DNA of 64,000 nt from Zanthoxylum bungeanum (Eukaryota > Streptophyta > Magnoliopsida > Sapindales > Rutaceae): NCBI GenBank assembly GCA_019454045.1, contig SKCR01032775.1, positions 806,001 through 870,000 of the forward strand. The letters are read 5' to 3'. Shown one piece after another: positions 3,912 to 36,078 of this stretch. The first letter of the stretch is position 1, and each line of letters opens with the position of its first letter. The notes under the pieces are model-generated. The model was given only the letters and a program-made list of their open reading frames with translations, did no database searches and was not told the DNA's origin. Both the position numbers and the translations under genes were made by a program.

Positions 3912-4505
3912 TGGATGCTGGATTTCGGCCGAGGTCCACAATCAGAATTTATAGGTTGGGGGCATCAGCGATCCTGCAAGACAAAGTAGAGTGAGCGGGA
4001 GAAGACTTCCCACCGGTGTGGTGGGTGCCGGGGGCACTCCGACGCTCAAGTCAGTAGTATGAAATGAGCAGTAAATGTGTAAAATGTGAAAGCAAGGCTT
4101 ACTATTACCATGACCTTCTTTGGGTGGCCGTGAGGGCGGAATGAAGTGTTTAAGAAATGTGAAGCTCTGAGAGCTTGTGTCAGAAAGCAGAAACTGTAAG
4201 AGAGAAGTCAGGCTTGCTCTCCCCTGTTTCTCGAATTGTGTTGTAATTTATAGATAAAGATGAGTGACTTTAGCAGCTGGCATAAGTCCCACAATGTGCT
4301 AAGATATCACTATTTAATGATCAAAGTGGAGCAATTAGGTGAAGTGGGGAATGTTAGGTAAGGTTTCGGCTTTATGTATGAATCACGTGGAATAAGGTTT
4401 TTATTGGGCTTTATCTTGGGCTTTCATCTCTGTCTATGGGCTTTATCTGACATTGGTTTCGAATGAAAAGACAGTTTTACCCCTGGCCCAAATTTGGCAC
4501 GTACA
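3912..4505 (+). repeat. 5' LTR of nested element
   Basis: TG...CA termini and a near-perfect match to 9867-10460. A 15-bp inverted repeat follows the LTR at once (ACTCTCTAAGTCAAG at 4517-4531 and CTTGACTTGGAGAGT at 4537-4551, one G-U-type mismatch). It could fold in the transcript near the expected primer-binding or packaging region. I cannot identify a tRNA primer-binding site with confidence. Confidence 0.85.
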
Positions 4506-9866: not shown

Positions 9867-10460
9867 TGGATGCTGGATTTCGGCCGAGGTCCACAATCAG
9901 AATTTATAGGTTGGGGGCATCAGCGATCCTGCAAGACAAAGTAGAGTGAGCGGGAGAAGACTTCCCACCGGTGTGGTGGGTGCCGGGGGCACTCCGACGC
10001 TCAAGTCAGTAGTATGAAATGAGCAGTAAATGTGTAAAATGTGAAAGCAAGGCTTACTATTACCATGACCTTCTTTGGGTGGCCGTGAGGGCGGAATGAA
10101 GTGTTTAAGAAATGTGAAGCTCTGAGAGCTTGTGTCAGAGAGCAGAAACTGTAAGAGAGAAGTCAGGCTTGCTCTCCCCTGTTTCTCGAATTGTGTTGTA
10201 ATTTATAGATAAAGATGAGTGACTTTAGCAGCTGGCATAAGTCCCACAATGTGCTAAGATATCACTATTTAATGATCAAAGTGGAGCAATTAGGTTAAGT
10301 GGGGAATGTTAGGTAAGGTTTCGGCTTTATGTATGAATCACGTGGAATAAGGTTTTTATTGGGCTTTATCTTGGGCTTTCATCTCTGTCTATGGGCTTTA
10401 TCTGACATTGGTTTCGAATGAAAAGACAGTTTTACCCCTGGCCCAAATTTGGCACGTACA
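9867..10460 (+). repeat. 3' LTR of nested element
   Basis: Near-identical copy of 3912-4505 with TG...CA termini. The substitutions I noticed are CAGAGAGCAG for CAGAAAGCAG and AGGTTAAGTG for AGGTGAAGTG. Confidence 0.85.
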
Positions 10461-18165: not shown

Positions 18166-19141
18166 CAATTACACATTTGCACCTGTCATCAAATATACGT
18201 AAACGCAGCCTGTTGCGGGCTTGTAATCGGGGTTAATGGCTTGAGGAAGTGGGTCCATGATATACTGTCTGATTTTTCTGCCGTCAAACCACTTTAAACT
18301 CAAGTAAAACCATCTGATGTCCCAAATTTTTACAAAAAACACATCTCTTGAACTCGAATCCAAAATCTGACAATCAAATCACAAGTTCTTTGCCACAAGA
18401 CACTACCCCTTAGGGAATTTAAATAAGAGGTTTTTATGACGTGAATCTAACTACGACCTTCTTGTGATGTTTGGTGGAAGATCCACGTGGTTCTTGGGCT
18501 ACACGTGTGGAATTTTTGGAACTTTTGTACGTGTCAATGCGGGTTGTGATGTGGCATGAATCAGGAGATTATGAAGAACCCATGAAAGGTCTTTGAATTT
18601 TTATGTCATCTTTGTATCTGAATTCTGACCCCTGCGGCTCAGTGTACAATCATCATGCCACTGTAAAATAATAAGCTAAACACTTACACGATACAAGCAT
18701 AAGTAGTGCTCATTTCATGTAGATTTCTAATGCTCCGCTTACTTTCAAATGTGTATCTAAAAAATCTAAAATAAACAAAATTAATAGCAAATCACATGTT
18801 TTTTTTGACCTCATGAAGTTTTATTGCAGATACTAGAATGTTGTCATCGCCATTGTGCATCTGAAAGCTAGTAAATGCTAACAGGGTTAACAATAACACA
18901 ATTCTCTCAACCAGAATCATATAATTGCATATTCACACTCTTTTTACCATAAACTTATTAACAAAGCAGGCAAGACAAACTTATTTTTGAACGAATAGCA
19001 AAGTAAAACAGAGATAATACCAGAACTATCTTGGAGCAACACTTCCAAGTTATTATCCACTGGTATTTTTGTACTGAGAAACATATTTTAAGTTTATCAC
19101 AAGCTTGAGTCAACGGCAAATGATACTGAAACCTCTTTATT
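18166..19141. other. Intergenic DNA
   Basis: No gene seen. Two ACGT-core words (CCACGTGG near 18485 and ACACGTGT near 18503) occur close together, but no adjacent promoter is evident. The 3' end of the PRXIIF/SDH3 locus begins at 19142. Confidence 0.5.
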
Positions 19142-19323
19142 TCTGTCTGAAAATGACATTGGCACCAGAAACCTTCATGTCGGATGGGGCTTCCTCTACA
19201 TTAACAGCCTTCATCTTCCCATCTACAAAGAAACAACATTATCTCAGTAAATGACATTTACGAAGTTAAATGTATAGTGACCGTTCATGTCTAGAATACC
19301 TTTCAGAGTGAAATTTTGAAAAA
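19142..19323 (-). other. Residual PRXIIF 3' end, now 3' UTR of the chimera
   Basis: Just past the SDH3 stop, the minus strand reads CACTCTGAAAG|GTATTC (about 19301), resembling the old PRXIIF exon-4 donor (Arg-Ser-Glu-Arg). The former last PRXIIF exon follows after an acceptor TTTGTAG: MKAVNVEEAPSDMKVSGANV ending IFRQK and a stop at 19142-19144. It would be spliced but untranslated after the SDH3 stop codon. Confidence 0.8.
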
Positions 19324-21808
19324 TCATTTCAATATGTTTCTTCCAATTCTAAGAATGGTAGTTCCCGAAAAATCCGTCAATAAATGACGAACCCCATGAA
19401 ACACATGATAGGCCAGGGCTAAGGCAGTAATCTCGCCGGAGATTAGGATAAGCTTTGATGAGTAAAAGTAAAAGAAGAATTGGTAGAAACTCTCATAGGT
19501 GAAGCAAATCGAACCCATTTTCATACAAAGAAGATAATAAAACAAAACAATCCCAGAGAGTAAAGCCCCAGTGATTCTATGGTAAATTGAAAACGTCGCA
19601 TTGAGCTGTGGCTGATAAATAGGAAGATGAGGAGATAACGGGCGAAGGATATCTGAAGTTTCAGAACGATCTTTTTGCAAGTCCAAGCTCTTGTGGAAGC
19701 GTCTAACAAAACCACCATAAAAGTTGACCTATTCATAGGAAAAACAGAAAAAACATTAGTGCTTCATCAGAGGATTACCTCTTAAAACTAGAGTATTTAT
19801 AACCTATACAATACCACTATTGATGAGATTGTCAAACATCTTGTGCTGGGGAAGTACAAATGATGACCAATTTTACAACCAAAAGCTGGTTGATTGTCCC
19901 ATTCTATTTCAGATGTTCATATAGGTAGTAATCTTACGGTCAACTTATTGCATATATTAAAGGATAATATTATGGCTTCAAACAAGGATGATAAAACGAG
20001 GATCATTAAAAATGGCCTTATCAATCAGTAATCCATAAATCACGGCCCATAGCTAAGCACAATACAGCGGAATGTTAGAAAAGACATCCCAAACCCACCT
20101 CCCATTGAGAAACCAATCAATTGAGGGGAAATTAAACTAAACAACTGACCCATTTAATACTCATGTAAACACCAAAGACCACACGGAAAACAGTTAGTAT
20201 TCAAATCCCTAACATAACAATTTTCTCTTGAAGTTAAGAGAATAAAGTAAAAGCAAATAACTTACAGCATCTTTGGTTCCAAGTTTCTCTGCCCGAGCAT
20301 TCATAACATATGGATTGTTAACAGATGCACAAACATAGTTATTAATCCCTTTAGCCTTGAACTTGTCAATGTTATTCTTGTAGCTAGGGACATTCTGCTG
20401 TGAAGAAACTCCAATGTGTGCACCCTGGAAGATGGTAAATGCAAAACAAAACAGAAATTAAGAATCAAAAGATGTTTGTCGATGTAGATATCAGTATCTT
20501 TTAGGTAACTATCCCCATGCCCCCCACCCCCCACCCTCTAATTTCCAGAGCCTGTCATTTGAAGTCTTTTTCTTTTTGACTAACAATATTAGTAAGTTAT
20601 AAAACAAAAATGGCTAACCACTTAAGCAGTTCCCTGGATTCCAAGGAGTAGACAACAATTTCATGACAAAAAAATCATCTTAAAACCAGTATGTGATAAT
20701 TTTGTACATCACGACAGAATAAACAGCCTAAACATATATGTGATAATTTTGTACATCACGACAGAATAAACAGCCTAAACATATATAAATGGAATTTAAT
20801 CATCATGTGGAAAAAAAATGTATTAGTCCTTGATGAAGCATATGCTTTTTTATCCTAAAAACACAAAATATTATGCAGGTTCCAATAACACACATGCAGA
20901 TCACCTTCCGACAAACAAACAACAAATAAGGCTTTGAGATACAAAAAATTATTTTAATCTAACTCAACAAATTATCAGACAACCTTGTCTTGTTTGTTAT
21001 TTGACAGTAAACAAAAAATAATAAATAAATGAATAAAAAAAAAAGATAAAATGCTCATCACAGAAGCTCTCAAGACTCAAATTTCGATATAGCTTCAAAT
21101 CTAAACCCCAAGAAGGAAACAATTCAAATCCAATTGACAAGTTTCAACATTTCTATTCCCACCAGGTTCTAATTATAATAATTCAGTCGTCATAATAACA
21201 ATACAAGGAACGCTATGTTAAGCTTCAGCTTTTAAGCACAAGTCCCCGATAGCAAATTTTTTTTCCTCATTTCCATAAATTAAAGTGTCAACACACACTT
21301 CACAGAATCATAACACTCATAAATATACAGCCGAAATTGGTCACCAAGTATCTCATTCACCGAACAAAGAAAATATAATTCATAAACGATAACTCAAAAC
21401 TGAAATGGGAGAAAAAGTTGACGATTAACTTACAGGGATTCCGAAATTGACTACTTCCTTGACCTGAAAATTGAAATGATAAAAATCCAACATAGATTTA
21501 TACAAATAAACAATCACAAACAATTGTGAAAAAGAAAATAATGTAATACGAAATCCAATTAAATGAAGTAAAATGAAAAGAACAAAATGAACCTTCAAAA
21601 TGTCTTCAACGGAAGTGGTGGAGAGCTTAGAAGAGACACCTTCATCCCCGATCCGAGCTTTCTGAGGAGAAACATCAGGTGAGGCGGAGACTTTGCCGGA
21701 GCCCGCAGCAAACGACGCGTACGTTCTTGATGACGTGGCAATTCGAAGACTATCCGCCACTGAACTTAAAGCAGATGCGCTGCGACGCTTCAGAATAAGT
21801 GATGCCAT
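19324..21808 (-). CDS. Chimeric gene: peroxiredoxin IIF front with in-frame mitochondrial SDH3 (cytochrome b560 of complex II)
   Basis: Minus-strand exons: 21808-21593 (residues 1-72), 21463-21434 (73-82), 20424-20266 (83-135) and 19728-19324 (136-269). All junctions are phase 0 and the frame is open, 269 residues. Exon 1 is an Arg/Ser-rich mitochondrial presequence closely like PRXIIF (ending [10 protein letters not shown]). Exons 2-3 are PRXIIF, but PGAYTGVC has become PGAHIGVS, so the peroxidatic Cys and its Thr are lost. Exon 4 begins as PRXIIF ([19 protein letters not shown]), then becomes SDH3 from about residue 162 ([17 protein letters not shown]). It keeps the quinone-site SIYHRITG (Ser182, Arg186) and the heme-side His region [18 protein letters not shown]3 anchors succinate dehydrogenase in the inner membrane and binds heme b and ubiquinone. 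Exon 1 can also join exon 4 directly in frame. Confidence 0.88.
20691..20784. repeat. 47-bp tandem duplication in intron of chimera
   Basis: ATGTGATAATTTTGTACATC and the bases that follow are present twice, starting at 20691 and 20738, with no difference seen. Recent local duplication inside the intron between exons 2 and 3. Confidence 0.9.
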
Positions 21809-23138
21809 GCTTTGCAGTTTGTTCTTCTCGGTCGTTGATGCTGTATCCGGCGGCAGTCGTTTGATGAGGGAATCGCTGATGATTCAGATACATAGGATTA
21901 GGTTATAGTTTGACTAGAAACGATTTGGGAGGGTGGTCTATCAAAATGGGCTTCATTTATGGGCCTTATTGTCTACATTGAGTTGCTCAATGGGCCTAAA
22001 GGTTTTTTTTTTTTTTTAAAGTAAGATTTTACTTTATTCTGTTATTTTAAAAAGGATTTTTTTTAAGAAGTTAAAACGTATCAAGGATTTTTATTTATTT
22101 TTGTTTGTTTACTCTTTAGAGTTCCCAATTTAAACGGAAATCGATAACAAATTACTTTTCAAATATTTAAAAGTAAATCCAACTTATTCGGAGGTCAATT
22201 ATCTAGATTGCACCATAACAGCGGTCCTACAAGCAGATTTGCAATGTAATACTAAAAAATAGTACAAGAGCCTACCAAAATTGTAGAAGGGCTGAAAATG
22301 GGAGGAAATTACACGAGGGTTTCTTATTTGAAGAACTGATTTCAATCCCAGCCCAAAATTCTTCTTATTAAGGTAGTTAGTTGAGTAGCTCAATGCAATT
22401 TCAATTACAAAACAATGCATCTCGATGGATGCCGATATCCCATCTGCCTAATTTAAAAACCAGAGGTGGCATTGAATCTTGTTTCTTCAAAACTGATCCG
22501 AAAATTTGGTTTCAGGTCCAAAAATCACATTTTATTAGCAACCCTTCCACCTATTATGAGGTCTAGATTAACAACTGCTGCAATCCAACATGAATTTGTA
22601 ACCATATATATATAACACCAAGAACTTCCAAGTCCCTGCAATAAAAATCATTCAAGACCGTCACATTTCAGCAACAACTCCATTTCCAAAAATGAAAGCA
22701 AAACAGCATCTCATATTTAATAAAAATATATTCGTGGACAAGATAATTAAATAGAAGTCAATCCGGAAAGAATGAAGTTAAAATTCATAAATTAATCAAC
22801 CATACCTTGAATGTGACACTCCGAAAACTACATCAAAAATGCAAACATTGCAAAGTATTCACAGCACTGGAGTAAGACTATTGACTTTCGTCCGCAGACA
22901 AATAAAATTATGAAATTATCAAACCTTGTTATTCACTGGTAATGTAATCTATTGTAATTTTAAATAATCAAGGAAACCAAGGCTGTTTTTAAATGCAACG
23001 TACTAATTATGCTATATTACAAAATAGGAACAAATCATATTTATCAGTCTTTTGCACTTCCTTTTTTTTAATTATTTTAAAGGGCACAATATGAGTTGTA
23101 AAAGAATAGCAAGAGTCAAATTTGTGCATGCCACTTTT
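21809..23138. other. Promoter side of PRXIIF/SDH3 chimera and intergenic DNA
   Basis: Short leader above the ATG at 21808, then AT-rich DNA with poly-T tracts near 22008-22020. Nothing gene-like between here and the TSC10-like pseudogene. The two loci point the same way. Confidence 0.5.
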
Positions 23139-24860
23139 CTATGCTTCCACATACCAATTCCACTGGAAGCAAAGCCCAGTAAAACGCATCAAACCAGCGG
23201 CGACCACTTCAACAAACGCCATCAGGAATGATCTCAGAGGTGATAAACCAGCAGTTGCCATAGACAGTAGGAGTCCCTCCAAGTTGCAAGGGACAATGAA
23301 GCTGCCAGATTTGATGCCGTCTAGAGCTTTCTTGGCAACTTCATCAGCTTTCATTGCACCAGATGAGGCCACTATAATGCAGCTGATTTGTGGTCTTCTC
23401 TTGTTTTCTGCAATCAGGTGGAATCTTCCAAGTTACACACAGCACCCAAAAAAATGGAAATCTCCAAAATCAGAACTAGCTACAAATATTAGAATGTCAC
23501 TATATCTTGCAACTCCTTTAAATTCCTATATTTCAGTCAAGATAAATACAGAAAAGACTATGTAACATAAAAGAAATATACAATTAGAAACAATACCTTC
23601 CTCTAGACCAGGAGTGTCCGTGCCCGGAGGTAATATAAGAGAGACATGGATGCCATCTGCAATAACCTCTTGTTGCAATGCTTCTGCTAAACCTCTTAGG
23701 CCAAATTTACTAGCACAATAAGCTGTGTAACCATAAACACCCACCTGCCCACAAAATGATCCCATATCAACATCAACAGGCACAAGAGACATTACTAACA
23801 AGTAAGAAACACTGCCCCATCAAGCTCACAGCAACTTGTCACACAGTCATGTATGGTGTTTATTTTGTTGTGATAAACTGCCTTACAACAGCAATGTTCT
23901 AAAAAACATTAGGCGGTAGGCATATAGTGGGAAAGCGCCTAACGCCTCGGCCTTCTAGGCGCCGCCTATAAGGGTAGGCTAGGCGGTTTCATTTTTTATT
24001 CAAAAAATGGGGAAAAAAAATTGGAGGAAAAGAAGGTACAGGTTCTAGGCGGCGCGTAAACTCACCTGACCCGCTTATACTCGCCTAATCGCCCGACACC
24101 GCCTAGCAACCATTTTTATGCATAATCGGAACAGCCAGACATCCCCTAGCGCCTAGAAGACCGTTTTTTAGAACAGTGTACAACAATTATATGTTATAAA
24201 CGTTACAAGTATTTTGTTGCTGATCATAAGTTCTTTGTTACTAGTTACATCACACGTCTATAGTTATATGAAAAACTTATGCTTTAGCGTAACAATTATG
24301 ACCAGTAACTAGTATTTGGGACATTATTGTATTAAAAAGAGATCAATTTATCATACCCGACCGGCCTGAGAGGACATAAAGCGATGGAAACGGGCCCACC
24401 ATTTTGCCTCTTCTTCATCAATGGCAGTGCAGCTTTGATCACATAGAAACTCCCCATAACATTGACATCAATAATGAACCCAACCTCATCCAATGCCTGC
24501 ACCTCCAATTCTCCAGGCAGGAACACGCCTTGATTGACCACCAACACATCGACGGGACCCGCCTCATCGAGCGCCGTTTTAACGGCGTCAAAATCACTAA
24601 CGTCGGCGGAATACGTGGCTACCTCGATTCCGGTTGCGAGCCGGATTGATTCTTTCGCTATTTCTAGCTTTTGGCGGGAACGCGCCAGGATGGACACGCG
24701 GGCGGCCTGATGGGCGAGGGCCAGGCCGATGCCGCTGGATCCACCTGTGATGAACACGTGGCGGTTTTTGATTGGGATCCTGACGGGCTTGGGACGAGCT
24801 CACGAACGATGAGGTAGAGTAAGAGGAGGAGGAGGACGAGGAAACCGATAAATGAGAGAG
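23139..24860 (-). pseudogene. 3-ketodihydrosphingosine reductase (TSC10-like), disrupted
   Basis: TSC10 reduces 3-ketosphinganine in sphingolipid synthesis at the ER. Pieces on the minus strand: an N-terminal hydrophobic stretch FIGFLVLLLLLLYLIVREL (about 24790-24850), the Rossmann TGGSSGIG segment (VRIPIKNRHVFITGGSSGIG), GPVDVLVVNQGVF, a second exon 23744-23597 with catalytic YGYTAYCASK, and a last exon 23407-23139 ending FQWNWYVEA. Exons 2-3 are intact and in phase. Exon 1 is not: an apparent 8-bp insertion (GAGCTCGT) puts the membrane segment out of frame, five residues are missing after AHQAA, and a 1-base deletion precedes the donor at 24358 where SSQAG is expected. No in-frame ATG serves the catalytic part. 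A pseudogene is most likely. Assembly error is an alternative. Confidence 0.8.
23895..24175. mobile_element. MITE in intron of TSC10-like pseudogene
   Basis: Perfect 13-bp terminal inverted repeats: TGTTCTAAAAAAC at 23895 and GTTTTTTAGAACA ending 24175, 281 bp in all. The interior is rich in CTAGGCG/GCGCCTA words (for example GGCGCCGCC). TACAACA occurs on both sides within a few bases of the ends and may be a target duplication. No coding capacity. Confidence 0.8.
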
Positions 24861-26866: not shown

Positions 26867-28253
26867 TGGGAGTGTTTGATAAGTGTGGTTTATACCCACT
26901 TATTATGGCATTCTCAGCTTATTATTTTGTTATAATTCGAGATATTTAATATGATTTATAATTTATTTATGTTTTATTTATAAGAGCATTAATATATGGA
27001 TCGGGAATAATTGCACGTGTTTTGGGAAATTTCGGGGGAAAACACAGGACGAGCAGGGAAGAATGGCGCCGAGGCGCCAAAATCCCATACAAGTTCCAGG
27101 GAGAATGGCGCCATTCATCAAAAGCAATGGGCGCCGCGGCGCCCATTCATTAAGCAACAATGAGCGCCGCGGCGCCCATTCATTGATTAAACAAGGCGCC
27201 GCGGCGCCTCCTCACCCATACAATTTCCCGACAATTTGGCGCCGCGGTGCTGCGGAGAAGAAAAGTACGCGCATATCAGGAAATTAATTTTAGGGTTTTT
27301 AATAATCCTAATGCTACCCAAAGACTCCCTGCCTCAACTATAAATATAACATTACATCCAACACTCAAACGGAGGCTAATACATGCGCAAAACACGAAAC
27401 ACATATTTTTAGAGATCCAAGGAGAGGATTGAAGAGCGACAAGAGGAGTTAAGGCTGTTAATGTGCTGTAATATCCGGAGAGGAAGAGATTCAATTCGGG
27501 TTTTATCTTCTTATTTCTTTCTTAAAACTCTAATGATTTCCATTAGATTCGTGGCTTGATTATTTATTGTTTTATCTTTTGTCATGAATTTACTCCTTAA
27601 TTCTGGAGAATGGTGTAATTGATGCTTGAACCTTGTAATTTTGTTTATCAGTTTTGTAATGAAGTTTTATTAATTATTTATATTTTTTGAGTTTGATGCT
27701 TCTTGATTGCTGGCCACAATTTGAGATGATGAATGTTTAGAATCTATCACTCGAGAGAGAGGATTTTGAATAGATCTAGAGAATATAGCCTAGGATTTTA
27801 TAGAGTTCGAGAGAATCTGTAGTCCTTTGAAGTCGTTAACATAGAATCACAAATCGTAATGAGTTGTTAACTATTGGATTTTTATAGAGATATCGAAAGT
27901 CTATAGTTGATAATATTTTCACTCGGCACTCGAGAGAGGGAGTGAATATTTTAGGATCTTGACTTATAAATAATATAACTGAACAAAGATTAATTGGCAT
28001 GACAAATACATAGGAGACAGCTAGGTGAAATCAGGATCTATAATCTCTAATCGTATTAGTTCCTCCTATCTAAATATTTGTATATTTTATTTAATTATTA
28101 AAATCTTTATCATTTATTTTCTAAATAAAGTTAGGATTATCAATTGTAGTACTTAGTGCGAGTTAACGCAATCCCTGTGGGTTCGACACTCTTAACTCAT
28201 ATTTATACTAAAACTTGACACCGTACACTTGCGGTACGATATAAAATATCACA
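26867..28253 (+). repeat. 5' LTR of Athila-lineage element
   Basis: TATAAATA at 27339-27346 is a likely LTR promoter. Upstream, about 27062-27250, a ladder of GGCGCC palindromes occurs, including GGGCGCCGCGGCGCCC. It pairs with 31142-32515. Confidence 0.85.
27062..27250. repeat. GGCGCC palindrome ladder in 5' LTR
   Basis: Six or so copies of GGCGCC-based palindromes (GGCGCCGAGGCGCC, GAATGGCGCCATTC, GGGCGCCGCGGCGCCC and variants) are separated by CATTCATTAA-type spacers. They lie about 90-280 bp upstream of the TATA box. The 3' LTR carries the same ladder at about 31338-31525. Confidence 0.85.
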
Positions 28254-28262
28254 ACAAGTTTT

Positions 28263-28280
28263 TGGCGCCGTTGCCGGGGA
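28263..28280 (+). promoter_or_regulatory. Primer-binding site, tRNA-Asp type
   Basis: TGGCGCCGTTGCCGGGGA is the complement of the 3' end of plant tRNA-Asp. It lies nine bases past the 5' LTR end and is where minus-strand synthesis would be primed. Confidence 0.9.
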
Positions 28281-28536
28281 TTGTTTGTTAATTCACATTA
28301 ATACTACTACCAAGTATAATTTTAGCTTTAATTTAGATTTTTATTTTTATTTTTATTTTTAGTTTATTTTTGTTTTGTATTTAATTTTTTTTTTATCTTG
28401 TTATTGATTTTTATTTTTCTTTTGGTGCTTCAGTGAATGCGAAAAGCCACAAGTCTCAATTCGCTCCTGTTTGATCCTGAAATAAAAAGAACTGCGAGGA
28501 GACTAAGAAAAGAAAGGAAAATCGAAAAAAGAAGCA

Positions 28537-29700
28537 ATGGCAGCTGAAAACATAGAGAACAACCCACGCCATGTGGCAATCAGAGATCACTTCAAACCGG
28601 TCCTTGATAATATATGCTCTGGGATTGCCCATCAACCAATCAACGCCAACAGTTTTGAGTTAAAACCTGCATTGATCAACATGGTACAAAGGAATCAGTT
28701 TGGGGGTTCAGCTGTGTAGAGGATCCCAACTTGCACTTAAGGATGTTCCTGGAGATCGCAGATACCATAAAAGTAAATGGCGTGAGTAAAGAGGCTATCA
28801 GGCTACGCTTATTTTCATTCTTTTACGGGATAAAGCGTGGGATTGGCTGCAATCAATACAGACAGGGAGTATCATGACATGGCAAGATATGGCCACAAAA
28901 TTTCTTGAGATTCTTTCCACCAGCTAAATCAGCTCAACTGAGGGCAGAAATCAGTGTATTTAAGCAGCTGGAAACTGAGACTTTGTATGAAGCATGGGAG
29001 CGCTTTAAGGATTTACTACGAAGATGCCCACAACATGATTATGCAGATTGGGTCCAGATTCAGTTGTTCTATAATGGGTTGAATGGTCCGAATAGGACTG
29101 TGGTTGATGCAGCAGCTGGGGGAGCTCTATTCAGGAAATCAGCTGAGGAAGCGCACAATTTATTGGAAGAAATGGCCATTAACCATTATCAATGGCCAAG
29201 TGAACGCGCTACGGTAACCAAAGTGGTTGGGATTTATGAAGTAGACCCTCTTGTGGCACTTACAGCTCAGATTTCCACCTTGGCCACTCAAGTAGCAGCC
29301 CTGACAAAACCACGAGTATCATCTATTGAATCAGCGACAGCTACAAATATGGAGTTAGTGGAAGGAAACCCGAACATTGAACACGTCAATATGTGAACAA
29401 TCGGAACTTCAACAGCTATAGAGGAAATCTTATGCCTAACCGTTATCATCCAAACCTGTCATATGCTAACACAGAGATACTTTGCAACCTTCTTCTGGTT
29501 TTGACTATAAAAAGGATGAGCAGAAATCTTCCTTAGAAGATTTCGTGAGCACGTTTGCTGCTAGTACTTCAGAGAGATTTGAGAAGACTGAGTCAAGGCT
29601 AAACAATATTGAGATACACATGGAAAATATGGAGGCTACAATGAAGTCTTTAGAAACACAAATTGGGCAGATTGCATCCTCCATAACCAAGCAGCAGTAG
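28537..29700 (+). pseudogene. Frameshifted gag of Athila/Tat lineage
   Basis: Starts ATG 28537 (MAAENIENNPRHVAIRDHFK), reads to FGGSAV, then a 2-base shift near 28720 continues EDPNLHLRMFLEIADTIKVN and LLRDKAWDWLQSIQTGSIMT. A 1-base shift near 28908 leads to FFPPAKSAQLRAEISVFKQL and the retrotransposon gag domain to about 29396. A last open piece 29482-29700 is a coiled-coil-like segment (ERFEKTESRLNNIEIHMENM). The family's capsid-like protein packages element RNA. This copy needs frame corrections and has no zinc knuckle that I could read. Confidence 0.85.
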
Positions 29701-29809
29701 GGGCATTTGAATAAAACTATCACAGCCGCCAAGCTATCTTTTTCATGTCAAAGCAGTCAGTGGATACAAAAGAAGAAGCTACCATGACCACCATTTGGGT
29801 GGTTGCGTC

Positions 29810-31141
29810 TGGCTGAAGACGTTAAACTTAGCGCTAGCGGGGAGGCAACCCTTGCATTTCTTTTATTATTATTTTTACTTTTTATTTTATTTATCTTATT
29901 TTATTTTATTGTGTGCTATTTATTTATTTGCATGTTATTTATGCAGGTAGCATGAGACACACAAAGCCCGCGCAACCAAATTCTAACCAGCAAGAGTCTG
30001 ATCAACTCCATGCACGGTAGTGTTGTTCCTTACTCTTGTTCTTTAAATTTTTATCTTACATTGAGGACAATGCAAATTTTAAGTTTGGGGGTGTGTGCAT
30101 GTTGCTTACTTGTTATTTAGTTGTTTAAATTTTGTTATTTAAATTTTTTAAAAAAAAAAATTTGTTTTAGTCTTTGATAGTAAAGCATAAATCCTGTGAT
30201 GATATTTTTGTTTATGAGTGAAATTTTAGAAACGATAAGTGCCTAATTTACTTTTATCTGATGCCTTGAATAATTGATCTATGTTAGACTCGTAAGCACT
30301 TAAAAATAGGTTTTTATCAGTAAAACTTAAGTAGTTGACAATGTGACTAGTTGAAGAAATTGCATATCGATGAATGACCGTTTGCTTAGATATCTATCTT
30401 GATTTGCTAGTGTTATGAAGTATGGTATAGCTAAAAAGAAAAATGTCTCTAAAGAAAGAAAATAAACCACCTATAACCGATAAGCGTGAAGCTACCCATG
30501 GGCGAGTATTAGGACCACCATGAGGAGAAATGCTACCTTAAAGGGTAAGTGTGTTGATTAAAAAAAAATAAAAGAGCAAAAAGAGAAGCAAAAAGAGACA
30601 AGAAAAGAAAAAAAAAATCATACCATACTGAGCACGAAATAAAGCAATTACAAAGCATAATTGAGATATCTAAGTTGGTTTGACCCATTGATTCTAATTT
30701 TTAAACGAAATCATTGAGTTGGCTTACTTAAGATCAAAGCTGTGATGAACCTTTACACACACACACCTTGAGTCTAGCTTAGATAATTTATTCAATAATT
30801 TGGATTCGAGTTGCAATTGCGTACTTTGAAGATTCTTTAATTTCATTTATAAGCTTTCTTTGAGGAAAATTTTATGCGCAACTGTTGGGACTATCTTTTG
30901 TTATTTTTTATATTTTTTGCATGATTGTGTGTGAATGACGTTTGTGGGTGTCGTCACTGTAAGCCCTCACGAGACTATAACTCGTCCACTAGGGCCGCCT
31001 AGGGGTTTAAAGGCTTGTTGCATATGCTAAATGCAATCGTGATCCCTACGAAAGTGGCTTAGTTAATTTAGTAATTCTAATTATTTATTTGAATTTAGTT
31101 TTTATTTTATCTATTGCTCGGGACTAGCAAAATCTTAAGTT
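29810..31141 (+). other. Non-coding 3' interior of Athila-lineage element
   Basis: Holds the conserved GACGTTAAACTTAGCGCT block, AT-rich DNA, an internal AAGTTTGGGGGTG near 30080, an A-rich stretch near 30560-30620, and the final TTTGGGGGTG purine tract before the 3' LTR. No open frames of note. Confidence 0.7.
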
Positions 31142-32515
31142 TGGGGGTGTTTGATAAGTGTGGTTTATACCCACTTATTATGGCATTCTCAGCTTATTAT
31201 TTTGTTATAATTCGAGATATTTAATATGATTTATAATTTATTTTATGTTTTATTTATAGGAGCATTAATATATGGATCGGGGAATAATTGCACGTGTTTT
31301 GGGAAATTTCGGGAAGACACAGGACGAGCAGGGAAAGATGGCGCCGAGGCGCCAAAATCCCATACAAGTTCCAGGGAGAATGGCGCCATTCATCAAAAGC
31401 AATGGGCGCCGCGGCGCCCATTCATTAAACAACAATGAGCGCCGCGGCGCCCATTCATTGATTAACAAAGCGCCGCGGCGCCTCCTCACCCATACAATTT
31501 CCCGACAATTTGGCGCCGCGGTGCTGCGGAGAAGAAAAGTACGCGCATATCAGAAAATTAATTTTAGGGTTTTTAATAATCCTAATGCTACCCAAAGACT
31601 CCCTGCCTCAACTATAAATATAACATTACATCCAACACTCAAACGGAGGCTAATACACTGCACAAAACACGAACACATATTTTTAGAGATCCAAGGAGAG
31701 GATTGAAGAGCGACAATAGGAGATTAAGGCTGTAATATCCGGAGAGGAAGAGATTCAATTCGGGTTTTATCTTCTTATTTCTTTCTTAAAACTCTAATGA
31801 TTTCCATTAGATTCGTGGCTTGATTATTTATTGTTTTATCTTTTGTCATGAATTTACTCCTTAATTCTGGAGAATGGTGTAATTGATGCTTGAACCTTGT
31901 ATTTTTTTTATCAGTTTTGTAATGAAGTTTTATTAATTATTTATATTCTTTTGAGTTTAATGCTTCTTGATTGCTGGCCACAATTTGAGATGATGAATGT
32001 TTAGAATCTATCACTCGAGAGAGGGGATTTTGAATAGATCTAGAGAATATAGCCTAGGATTTTATAGAGTTCGAGAGAATCTGTAGTCCTTTGAAGTCGT
32101 TAACATAGAATCACAAATCGTAATGAGTTGTTAACTATTGGATTTTTATAGAGATATCGAAGTCTATAGTTGATAATATTTTCACTCGGCACTCGAGAGA
32201 GGGAGTGAATATTTTAGGATCTTGACTTATAAATAATATAACTGAACAAAGATTAATTGGCATGACAAATACATAGGAGATAGCTAGGTGAAATCAGGAT
32301 CTATAATCTCTAATCGTATTAGTTCCTCCTATCTAAATATTTGTATATTTTATTTAATTATTAAAATCTTTATCATTTATTTTCTAAATAAAGTTAGGAT
32401 TATCAATTGTAGTACTTAGTGCGAGTTAACGCAATCCCTGTGGGTTCGACACTCTAACTCATATTTATACTAAAACTTGACACCGTACACTTGCGGTACG
32501 ATATAAAATATCACA
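31142..32515 (+). repeat. 3' LTR of Athila-lineage element
   Basis: Copy of 26867-28253 with small differences. TATAAATA is at 31613-31620. It ends ATATCACA directly against the right 198-bp repeat. Confidence 0.85.
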
Positions 32516-33850: not shown

Positions 33851-34964
33851 CTTTCCTCATAAATAATGACAAGAGAAGTAAAAAAAAGGAATATTCCATG
33901 GGGGGCTGAAAGTTATCCTTTAATAATATGGATAAAAGATGTGATTTGATTTATAGGATTCCTGATTTCAATCGGAGGTTTTGAGTTTGAATTCGGGAAG
34001 CGCGTTTCTTTGTAAGAGTCTGAGACAACATGAGATTTTAGATGCTCCGCTTAAGCTCGGGAAAGATGATTTGACAGCAAATTTCTAACGATTCAAAAAA
34101 AAAAAAAAAAGACAAAACAAAGATTCTATTAGGACAAAAACACAATCAAAATTAAAATAACATTTTCTTTTTCTTTTTCTTTTTCTTTTTCTTTTGTACT
34201 TTACTTTTATCTAGAGAGACGGAAAAAAGGTCCTCCCATACCGCACCCGCCTTAGTTGAAGTGCTTGACTGCTTGTAAGGGTAAGAAGCTTTTTCAGTTT
34301 TCATTATCTCCCTCAATTTATTTATTTTCCGTAATAACTAGCCTTGAGGAAGCAATATCAACTGAAAAAGAAAAGCAATAAAAATAGATCCGGTCACGCT
34401 TTCGGTTTGAAATCAAAGTCGAATCGGATGGAACGTAAGATTACGGTTTTATTCAGTTCCGGTTTTAAAATCAGAACCGAACCGAAATGAGTCTTGATTC
34501 GGTTACGATTCCACATAATTTGAAACCGTAATCTTAAGGTTCGGTCCGAGTTCAGTTCCGATTTGATTTAGTTCGGAACCATAACCAAACCATATTTTTT
34601 TTTCCCCAAAAAATAAAGAACCGAACCAGTTTAATCCGATTTTATAATTCCAAAAAACTAAAACATAGAACCAGACAATTTAATTCGATTATGGAACTGA
34701 ACCGTGATCACTCCTGAATAAAAACTCTCCTGTCATTATGTCAACTACCTAATTAACTGCAAAATAGATAGAAACAAGATAAGTATTCTCCTCCACGCTA
34801 CTTAGCCTTCACCGACAACGACAATTACCGATTTCTCATTTCTGGATCGCATCTTCATTTCGAGCATTTTTTGTTTAGCCATTATACATACATACATACA
34901 TACATACACTACATACATACATACATACCTCTCTTCAATGGCCAACCTCTAACTACTCAAAAGC
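33851..34964. repeat. 1.1-kb tandem duplication, copy 1
   Basis: Starts CTTTCCTCATAAATAATGAC and repeats after 1114 bp. It includes a SINE, a (CTTTTT)n run near 34165-34195, an ACCGAACCGAAA-rich block and a (CATA)n microsatellite near 34886-34930. Confidence 0.92.
33931..34110 (+). mobile_element. tRNA-derived SINE, copy 1
   Basis: A GTGATTTGATTTATAGGATT start, a box-B-like TTTGAATTCGGG, the family landmarks GCGTTTCTTTGTAAGAGTCT and GCTCCGCTTAAGCTCGG, and an end ATTTCTAACGATTC followed by poly-A. Confidence 0.75.
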
Positions 34965-36078
34965 CTTTCCTCATAAATAATGACAAGAGAAGTAAAAGAA
35001 AGGAATATTCCATGGGACTGAAAGTTATCCTTTAATATGGATAAAAGACGTGATTTGATATTGTAGGATTCATGATTTCAATTGGAGGTTTTGAGTTTGA
35101 ATTCGAGAAGTGCGTTTCTTTGTAAGAGTTTGAGACAACATGAGATTTTAGATGTTCCGCTTAAGCTCGGAAAAGATGATTTGACAATAAATTTCTAACG
35201 ATTCAAAAAAAAAAAAAAAAAAAGACAAAACAAAGATTCTATTAGGACAAAAACACAATCAAAATTAAAATAACATTTTCTTTTTCTTTTTCTTTTTCTT
35301 TTGTACTTTACTTTTATCTAGAGAGACGGAAAAAAGGTCCTCCCATACCGCACCCACCTTAGTTGAAGTGCTTGACTGCTTGTAAGGGTAATAAGCTTTT
35401 TCAGTTTTCATTATCTCCCTCAATTTATTTATTTTCCGTAATAACTAGCCTTGAGGAAGCAATATCAACTGAAAAAGAAAAGCAATATAAATAGATCCGG
35501 TCACGTTTTCGGTTTGAAATCAAAATTGAATCGGATGGAACGTAAAATTACGATTTTATTCAGTTCCGGTTTTAAAATCAGAACCGAACCGAAATGAGTC
35601 TTGATTCGGTTACGATTCCACATAATTTGAAACCGTAATCTTAAGGTTCAGACCGAGTTCAGTTTCGATTTGATTTAGTTCGGAACCAGAACCAAACCAT
35701 ATTTTTTTTCTTTTTTCCCCAAAAAATAAAGAACCGAACCAGTTTGATCCGATTTTATAATTCCAAAAAACTAAAACATAGAACCGGACAGTTTAATTCG
35801 ATTATGGAACTGAACCGTGATCACTCCTAAATAAAAACTCTCCTGTCATTATGTCAACTACCTAATTAACTGCAAAATAGATAGAAACAAGATAAGTATT
35901 CTCCTCCACGCTACTTAGCCTTCACCGACAACGACAAGTACCGATTTCTCATTTCTGGATCGCATCTTCATTTCGAGCATTTTTTGTTTAGCCATTATAC
36001 ATACATACATACATACATACACTACATACATACATACATACCTCTCTTCAATGGCCAACCTCTAACTACTCAAAAGCC
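34965..36078. repeat. 1.1-kb tandem duplication, copy 2
   Basis: Same content and order as 33851-34964 with scattered substitutions and small indels. It ends ACTACTCAAAAGCC. Confidence 0.92.
35045..35224 (+). mobile_element. tRNA-derived SINE, copy 2 (within tandem duplication)
   Basis: The same element as at 33931, duplicated with its surroundings rather than independently inserted. It has the same poly-A tail position. Confidence 0.75.

Follow-up and report, generated by a model that had tools for sequence, protein, structure and literature searches.

Zanthoxylum bungeanum carries a nuclear gene in which a mitochondrial-type sdh3 is joined in frame to the front part of a gene for peroxiredoxin IIF (PRXIIF), and we consider it probable that this is a functional mitochondrion-to-nucleus transfer of sdh3 in which the promoter, the introns and the presequence of PRXIIF were taken over and the peroxiredoxin itself became a dead leader. 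Because the enzyme part of the gene has decayed while the respiratory part is conserved, the sequence suggests that the old PRXIIF gene is now the import tag of the newcomer. The gene lies on the minus strand of a 64-kb stretch of contig SKCR01032775.1 (the window, 64,000 nucleotides), to which all coordinates below refer; the parts of the fusion gene are on the minus strand.

The fusion gene comprises four exons with a coding sequence of 810 nt, encoding 269 residues plus the stop. Exon 1 (21593..21808) holds the PRXIIF mitochondrial presequence and the start of the peroxiredoxin (residues 1-72), exon 2 (21434..21463) is a PRXIIF micro-exon of 30 nt and ten residues, and exon 3 (20266..20424) is the PRXIIF active-site exon, in which Ser stands in place of Cys89 and Ile in place of Thr86. 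Exon 4 (19324..19728) opens with the PRXIIF stretch VNFYGGF...LQKD(RS) and then passes, without an intron, into SDH3, which it follows in frame to the stop. All three introns are GT..AG and of phase 0. Pfam searches on the joined protein return Redoxin at residues 47-158 and Sdh_cyt at 164-257, with the PRXIIF part extending to about residue 158 and a whole SDH3 after it. The initial annotation had described four such minus-strand exons, with these splice sites, this phase and a stop, reading from PRXIIF into a complete SDH3, and the recomputed coding sequence and the two domains agree with it on these points. The unusually short exon 2 belongs to the anatomy of PRXIIF, since exactly its ten residues are absent from the Citrus and Pistacia PRXIIF rows P0066 and P0085. 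By alignment the N-terminus of the fusion, a putative import signal, is homologous to PRXIIF presequences, and it retains R28-x-Y30-A31, which we take to be a processing-type (cleavage) motif and of which R28 and A31 are invariant in an alignment of 15 PRXIIF rows.

Upstream of the ATG, at a distance of about 140-190 nt, stand three TGGGCY motifs (21947..21996, plus strand), which may be site II elements and part of the PRXIIF promoter. This is a weak indication, given 35 occurrences of the motif in the window against an expectation of 32. Two further clusters, each of four motifs, stand at 4405-4490 and 10360-10445; they have identical spacing and lie 5,955 nt apart, which suggests a duplicated element. 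Intron 2 of the fusion gene contains a 47-nt tandem duplication (94%) at 20683-20776.

The SDH3 frame including its stop occupies 19662-19324 within a mitochondrion-derived insert at 19308..19662, the edges of which are uncertain by a few bases. As judged by protein-level comparison with mitochondrial sdh3 proteins, this insert appears slightly larger than the SDH3 frame and would comprise a few mitochondrial leader codons, the frame itself and about 16 nt resembling a 3' flank. The leader reads ETSDILRP in the fusion and ETLDILRP in the mitochondrial-type SDH3 of Toona, and the E-T ahead of DILRP matches the upstream frame ETL[DN]ILRP of the mitochondrial rows P0241, P0043 and P0028. On the other side, TTTTTCAAAATTTCAC after the SDH3 stop is similar to L-F-K-I-S-P, the trailer that P0249, P0283 and other rows show in translation. 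The 16 nt fit P0043 less well: its coding part is nearer to the fusion, but its trailer reads W-L-W-L-F-K-I-A-P. PRXIIF sequence lies on either side of a mitochondrial-type sdh3, and the reading that such an sdh3 with a little flank came to interrupt exon 4 of PRXIIF in frame is well supported, and with it the organelle-to-nucleus transfer into PRXIIF that had been proposed for this locus.

As to the donor, the SDH3 part is 78-79% identical to P0043 and P0028 (tblastn), and its best-scoring match is the SDH3 of Toona sinensis (Meliaceae). Over 95 SDH3 rows, counted with nine distant rows (P0330-P0338) left out and with 5 of the 95 giving no pattern match, the leader ETx[DN]ILRP is found in three, P0241 (Toona sinensis), P0043 and P0028, and the same three carry a two-residue insertion, FYxFYSS; the SDH3 of Stephania (P0300) is likewise two residues longer, with other letters. 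Toona alone among the leader-sharing rows has the Asp of DILRP. A protein tree of 28 SDH3 rows pairs the fusion with Rhododendron at 84/87, the nearest rows by path being P0028, P0043 and Toona, and does not resolve the exact placement of the fusion SDH3 and hence its donor, so that the assignment rests on the leader and the insertion. The transfer probably took place within Sapindales.

The host gene can still be recognised around the insert. At the insertion point intact PRXIIF reads KD-LSAALLGP-RSERW in the alignment, and thus eight codons are missing at the insert. Beyond the SDH3 stop PRXIIF sets in again at TCTGAAAGG (SER) with what is left of its exon 4, a decayed tail reading SERYSRHE at 19284..19307 (a by-eye comparison with the PRXIIF alignment, the low edge being approximate), and the last PRXIIF exon, DGKMKAVNVEEAPSDMKVSGANVIFRQK and a stop, follows at 19137..19222 with 22 of its 28 residues the same as in Melia. 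This last exon had been noticed in the initial annotation together with an old exon-4 donor. The exon stands, but the proposed donor, CTCTGAAAG followed by GT, is probably not the original one, because PRXIIF-like sequence (SER-Y-S-R-H-E, where intact genes have SERWSAYVE) runs past it; the original donor would therefore have lain about 20 nt further on. TCTGAA does occur at both edges of the insert, as had been claimed, at 19660..19665 on entry and at 19302..19307 on exit, where it starts the apparent SER(W) codons of PRXIIF. Instead of marking a target duplication, the two copies may in part have belonged to PRXIIF from the start; end-joining at a microhomology and target-site duplication, the mechanisms named in the initial annotation, are both candidates. 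For the entry junction two histories can be envisaged: a join at KDLS together with a few substitutions, or an RSE that derives from the exit side by copying or duplication. The mitochondrial leader may also have offered a microhomology at CTGAAA.

The two halves of the protein show opposite constraint: changes in SDH3 avoid conserved columns, whereas those in the peroxiredoxin core do not. With P0241, P0043 and P0028 as the donor state and 82 of 94 rows usable (the three donors and 79 others), the SDH3 part has 22 changes from that state over 107 columns, 2 of them in the 36 columns conserved at 95% or more and 20 in the other 71 (one-sided p=0.004). The contrast persists at a threshold of 0.90, with 5/48 conserved against 17/59 other columns changed (one-sided p=0.016), and at 0.98, with 1/22 against 21/85 (one-sided p=0.028). 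At the level of protein sequence, this pattern indicates that the SDH3 part has been under purifying selection. In the peroxiredoxin core (residues 38-155, a change being a residue absent from P0002, P0004 and P0005) changes affect 19 of the 62 conserved columns and 15 of the 56 variable ones (one-sided p=0.75). Moreover, the fusion departs from PRXIIF at 15 of 51 columns conserved at 98%, a degree of departure far from that of the 114 database PRXIIF rows, none of which departs at more than three of 51-54 such columns. The residues lost include Trp54 and Trp126 as well as Cys89 and Thr86, which we take to be the peroxidatic Cys and a nearby catalytic residue. If the peroxiredoxin part has evolved neutrally, the 45 residue changes assumed for it would correspond to about 77 substitutions in 474 nt (about 0.16 per site), a divergence that implies an old event, which relatives ought to share; this counts against a simple functional reading.

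The residues of the SDH3 part also speak for function. In the alignment with chain 1zoy_C, SIYHR of the fusion stands opposite SICHR, and both sequences have YH...RH. We take these to be quinone- and heme-binding residues, the conservation of which the initial annotation had already cited in favour of function. A further hint comes from P0043 and P0028, which over 112 residues differ only by a P-to-S and an S-to-F exchange. They look like the products of a single mitochondrial gene before and after two C-to-U edits, the editing being deduced from this comparison. At the first apparent site the fusion has Ser, where P0043 and Toona have Pro; over the 95 SDH3 rows this site is P in 60 and S in 30, with 5 giving no match. 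At the second the fusion has Tyr, which is neither Ser nor the edited-type Phe. Nuclear genes cannot depend on mitochondrial RNA editing, and the Ser at the first site fits either a transfer via edited RNA or a later mutation. Support for function of the fused SDH3 is indirect: the halves are under opposite constraint, important residues are conserved, and one apparent C-to-U site encodes an edited-type residue.

The setting of the gene is nuclear: the fused SDH3 has spliceosomal introns and is flanked by TSC10-type, ThiF-domain and TBL10/11 genes. All are on the minus strand, in the order fusion (19-22 kb), TSC10-type (23-25 kb), ThiF-domain (44 kb; presumably ECR1) and TBL10 (46-50 kb), the last being nearest to P0121 (91%), then to Dipteronia (82%) and Mangifera (80%). 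PRXIIF and TBL10/11 lie on contigs of equal size, a mere proxy for their sharing one contig, in 16 of the 28 species that are represented among the rows for both genes. Among these 16, the locus tags are 3 to 11 apart in six species and 40 apart in Shorea; in the remaining 12 the contigs do not match, though in Malus the tags are 4 apart, and the count of 28 includes Nelumbo, Hibiscus syriacus and Linum perenne, none of which matches. Because this neighbourhood recurs across species, the insert probably hit PRXIIF at its ancestral address, or in a homeologous copy of that locus. A dispersed fragment with a copied presequence is disfavoured, the PRXIIF-TSC10-ThiF-TBL10 neighbourhood having been kept. 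The TSC10-type copy (3-ketodihydrosphingosine reductase; 23100-24800) apparently has two frame changes and a four-codon deletion, in comparison with the Arabidopsis sequence, and is either a pseudogene or affected by assembly indels; its decay might reflect a duplicated segment undergoing gene loss. A second, functional segment is predicted elsewhere in the genome. Searches of the 64-kb window for a second PRXIIF (tblastn with the Melia and one Citrus protein) gave only matches with E of at least 1 outside the fusion exons. Between the TSC10-type and ThiF-domain genes there is a likely LTR retrotransposon (about 27036-32455) with direct repeats about 4.26 kb apart, pieces of which are 96-100% identical, and a gag domain at 28878-29396; an Rfam snoR71 match above the gathering score lies at 28935-29041 on the minus strand, opposite to the gag frame. 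A further direct repeat spans 33951-35988, with a spacing of about 1.11 kb and 94-95% identity.

Taken together, we propose that a copy of mitochondrial sdh3 was inserted into exon 4 of PRXIIF, replacing about 24 nt and leaving a single open frame. Expression and targeting would then depend on what PRXIIF provides (its promoter, 5' UTR, introns and mitochondrial presequence), yielding an SDH3 precursor that is made in the cytosol and imported into the mitochondrion, where cleavage near R28-T-Y/A-S would precede insertion of SDH3 into complex II. What remains of the peroxiredoxin, roughly 125 residues, would be a dead leader with no reason to stay in frame other than the SDH3 behind it, and another PRXIIF copy would supply the peroxidase. 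We speculate further, as a tentative extension that we hold to be possible and rather unlikely, that this stub of about 125 residues stays on the mature SDH3 after removal of the presequence as a lineage-specific, matrix-side extension of complex II, that the fusion is the sole SDH3 gene, and that the antioxidant role has passed to a second copy of PRXIIF that genome duplication had set free.

The most serious competitor of a functional transfer, which we nevertheless regard as unlikely, is a non-functional NUMT: a fragment of sdh3 would have broken a redundant copy of PRXIIF, and the whole locus would now be decaying with a frame that is open by chance. An open frame alone is indeed weak evidence for function, for in a neutral simulation it remained without a stop in 32% of runs for the SDH3 part and in 19% for the peroxiredoxin part, or about 6% if the two are multiplied. 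The apparently frameshifted TSC10 next door would suit a segment decaying as a whole, sdh3 is listed as retained in the mitogenomes of the four related genera considered (Citrus medica, Aglaia, Garuga and Toona), and no such fusion protein is found among the best 120 of 281 protein matches, where that of a close relative should rank first. An inert insert should, however, be free of constraint, and the SDH3 changes avoid conserved columns (p=0.004, at the protein level) while those of the adjoining peroxiredoxin core do not; the splice sites are intact, and the Ser of SIYHR is encoded in its apparently edited state.

Two other explanations seem to us very improbable. The gene might be bifunctional, alternative splicing or the fusion itself still yielding peroxiredoxin IIF besides SDH3, and the surviving last exon of PRXIIF could be spliced on; presequence sharing by alternative splicing is mentioned for maize and rice (PMC2631504). 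Yet the peroxidatic Cys of GVCS is gone, which speaks strongly against a peroxidase, the other catalytic and Trp residues named above are replaced too, the C-terminal block LSAALLGP-RSERW is missing, decayed or left behind the SDH3 stop, and conserved columns of the core have changed as often as variable ones; with the catalytic residues lost, a bifunctional peroxiredoxin is rejected. An assembly chimera of nuclear and mitochondrial reads, which we rate as equally improbable, could be entertained insofar as the junctions are known from the assembled sequence. The SDH3 part, however, differs from the donor state by 22 changes and so cannot be raw mitochondrial DNA, and PRXIIF is altered as well, both ahead of the insert and behind it. 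The functional transfer into PRXIIF thus remains the reading that we favour.

Such a transfer has ample precedent. One paper counts 14 independent nuclear transfers of sdh3 identified up to then, all with presequences from pre-existing nuclear genes (PMC4045975), which bears out the statement of the initial annotation that sdh3 has repeatedly moved to the nucleus in angiosperms. The nuclear SDH3 of Rhazya stricta (Apocynaceae) resembles the fusion in that sdh3 is joined to the presequence of an existing gene, but there the donor is hsp22, of which the presequence and a further piece are used, and the gene has two exons (PMC4045975). Arabidopsis sdh3 (hsp70), carrot rps10 (hsp22) and rice rps11-1 (atp2) are likewise cited as having obtained presequences from existing genes for mitochondrial proteins (PMC2631504), and the sdh3 of Cupressaceae and Cephalotaxaceae that of a chaperonin heat shock protein (PMC8317393). 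In the Arabidopsis, carrot and rice cases the presequences were copied (PMC2631504), whereas the Zanthoxylum sdh3 is lodged in the donor gene, the last exon of which still follows it. Similar in form are the nuclear SDH3 genes of Apiaceae (Dystaenia, PMC10728875; Cicuta, PMC11792336), which also have four exons, 250-287 residues and a predicted mitochondrial presequence. Their presequence donor would nonetheless seem to differ from PRXIIF: no carrot PRXIIF-SDH3 fusion is among the best 120 of 281 matches, where carrot PRXIIF itself (P0039, 200 residues) is listed. In grasses rps14 is, like the Zanthoxylum sdh3, housed in a nuclear gene for a mitochondrial protein, sdh2, but it lies in an intron of its host (PMC1543663), while here an exon is interrupted and the host enzyme is dead.

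Repeated transfer of sdh3 to the nucleus with presequences from existing genes is therefore established, and the present case would add a new donor; PRXIIF in this role, of which the initial annotation had known no description, was not found in the open-licence literature searched either. As a rule a captured presequence has lost the surroundings from which it came. Here the host gene can be recognised to the left and right of the insert, at what appears to be its ancestral address, so that the event can be read fairly directly, from the landing site and the losses to the parts of the host that were kept and the later divergence in constraint between the halves. To the presequence donors already cited, which are genes for chaperones and ATP synthase, an antioxidant enzyme would thereby be added, and the locus illustrates one route by which a redundant gene may be reused as an import cassette.
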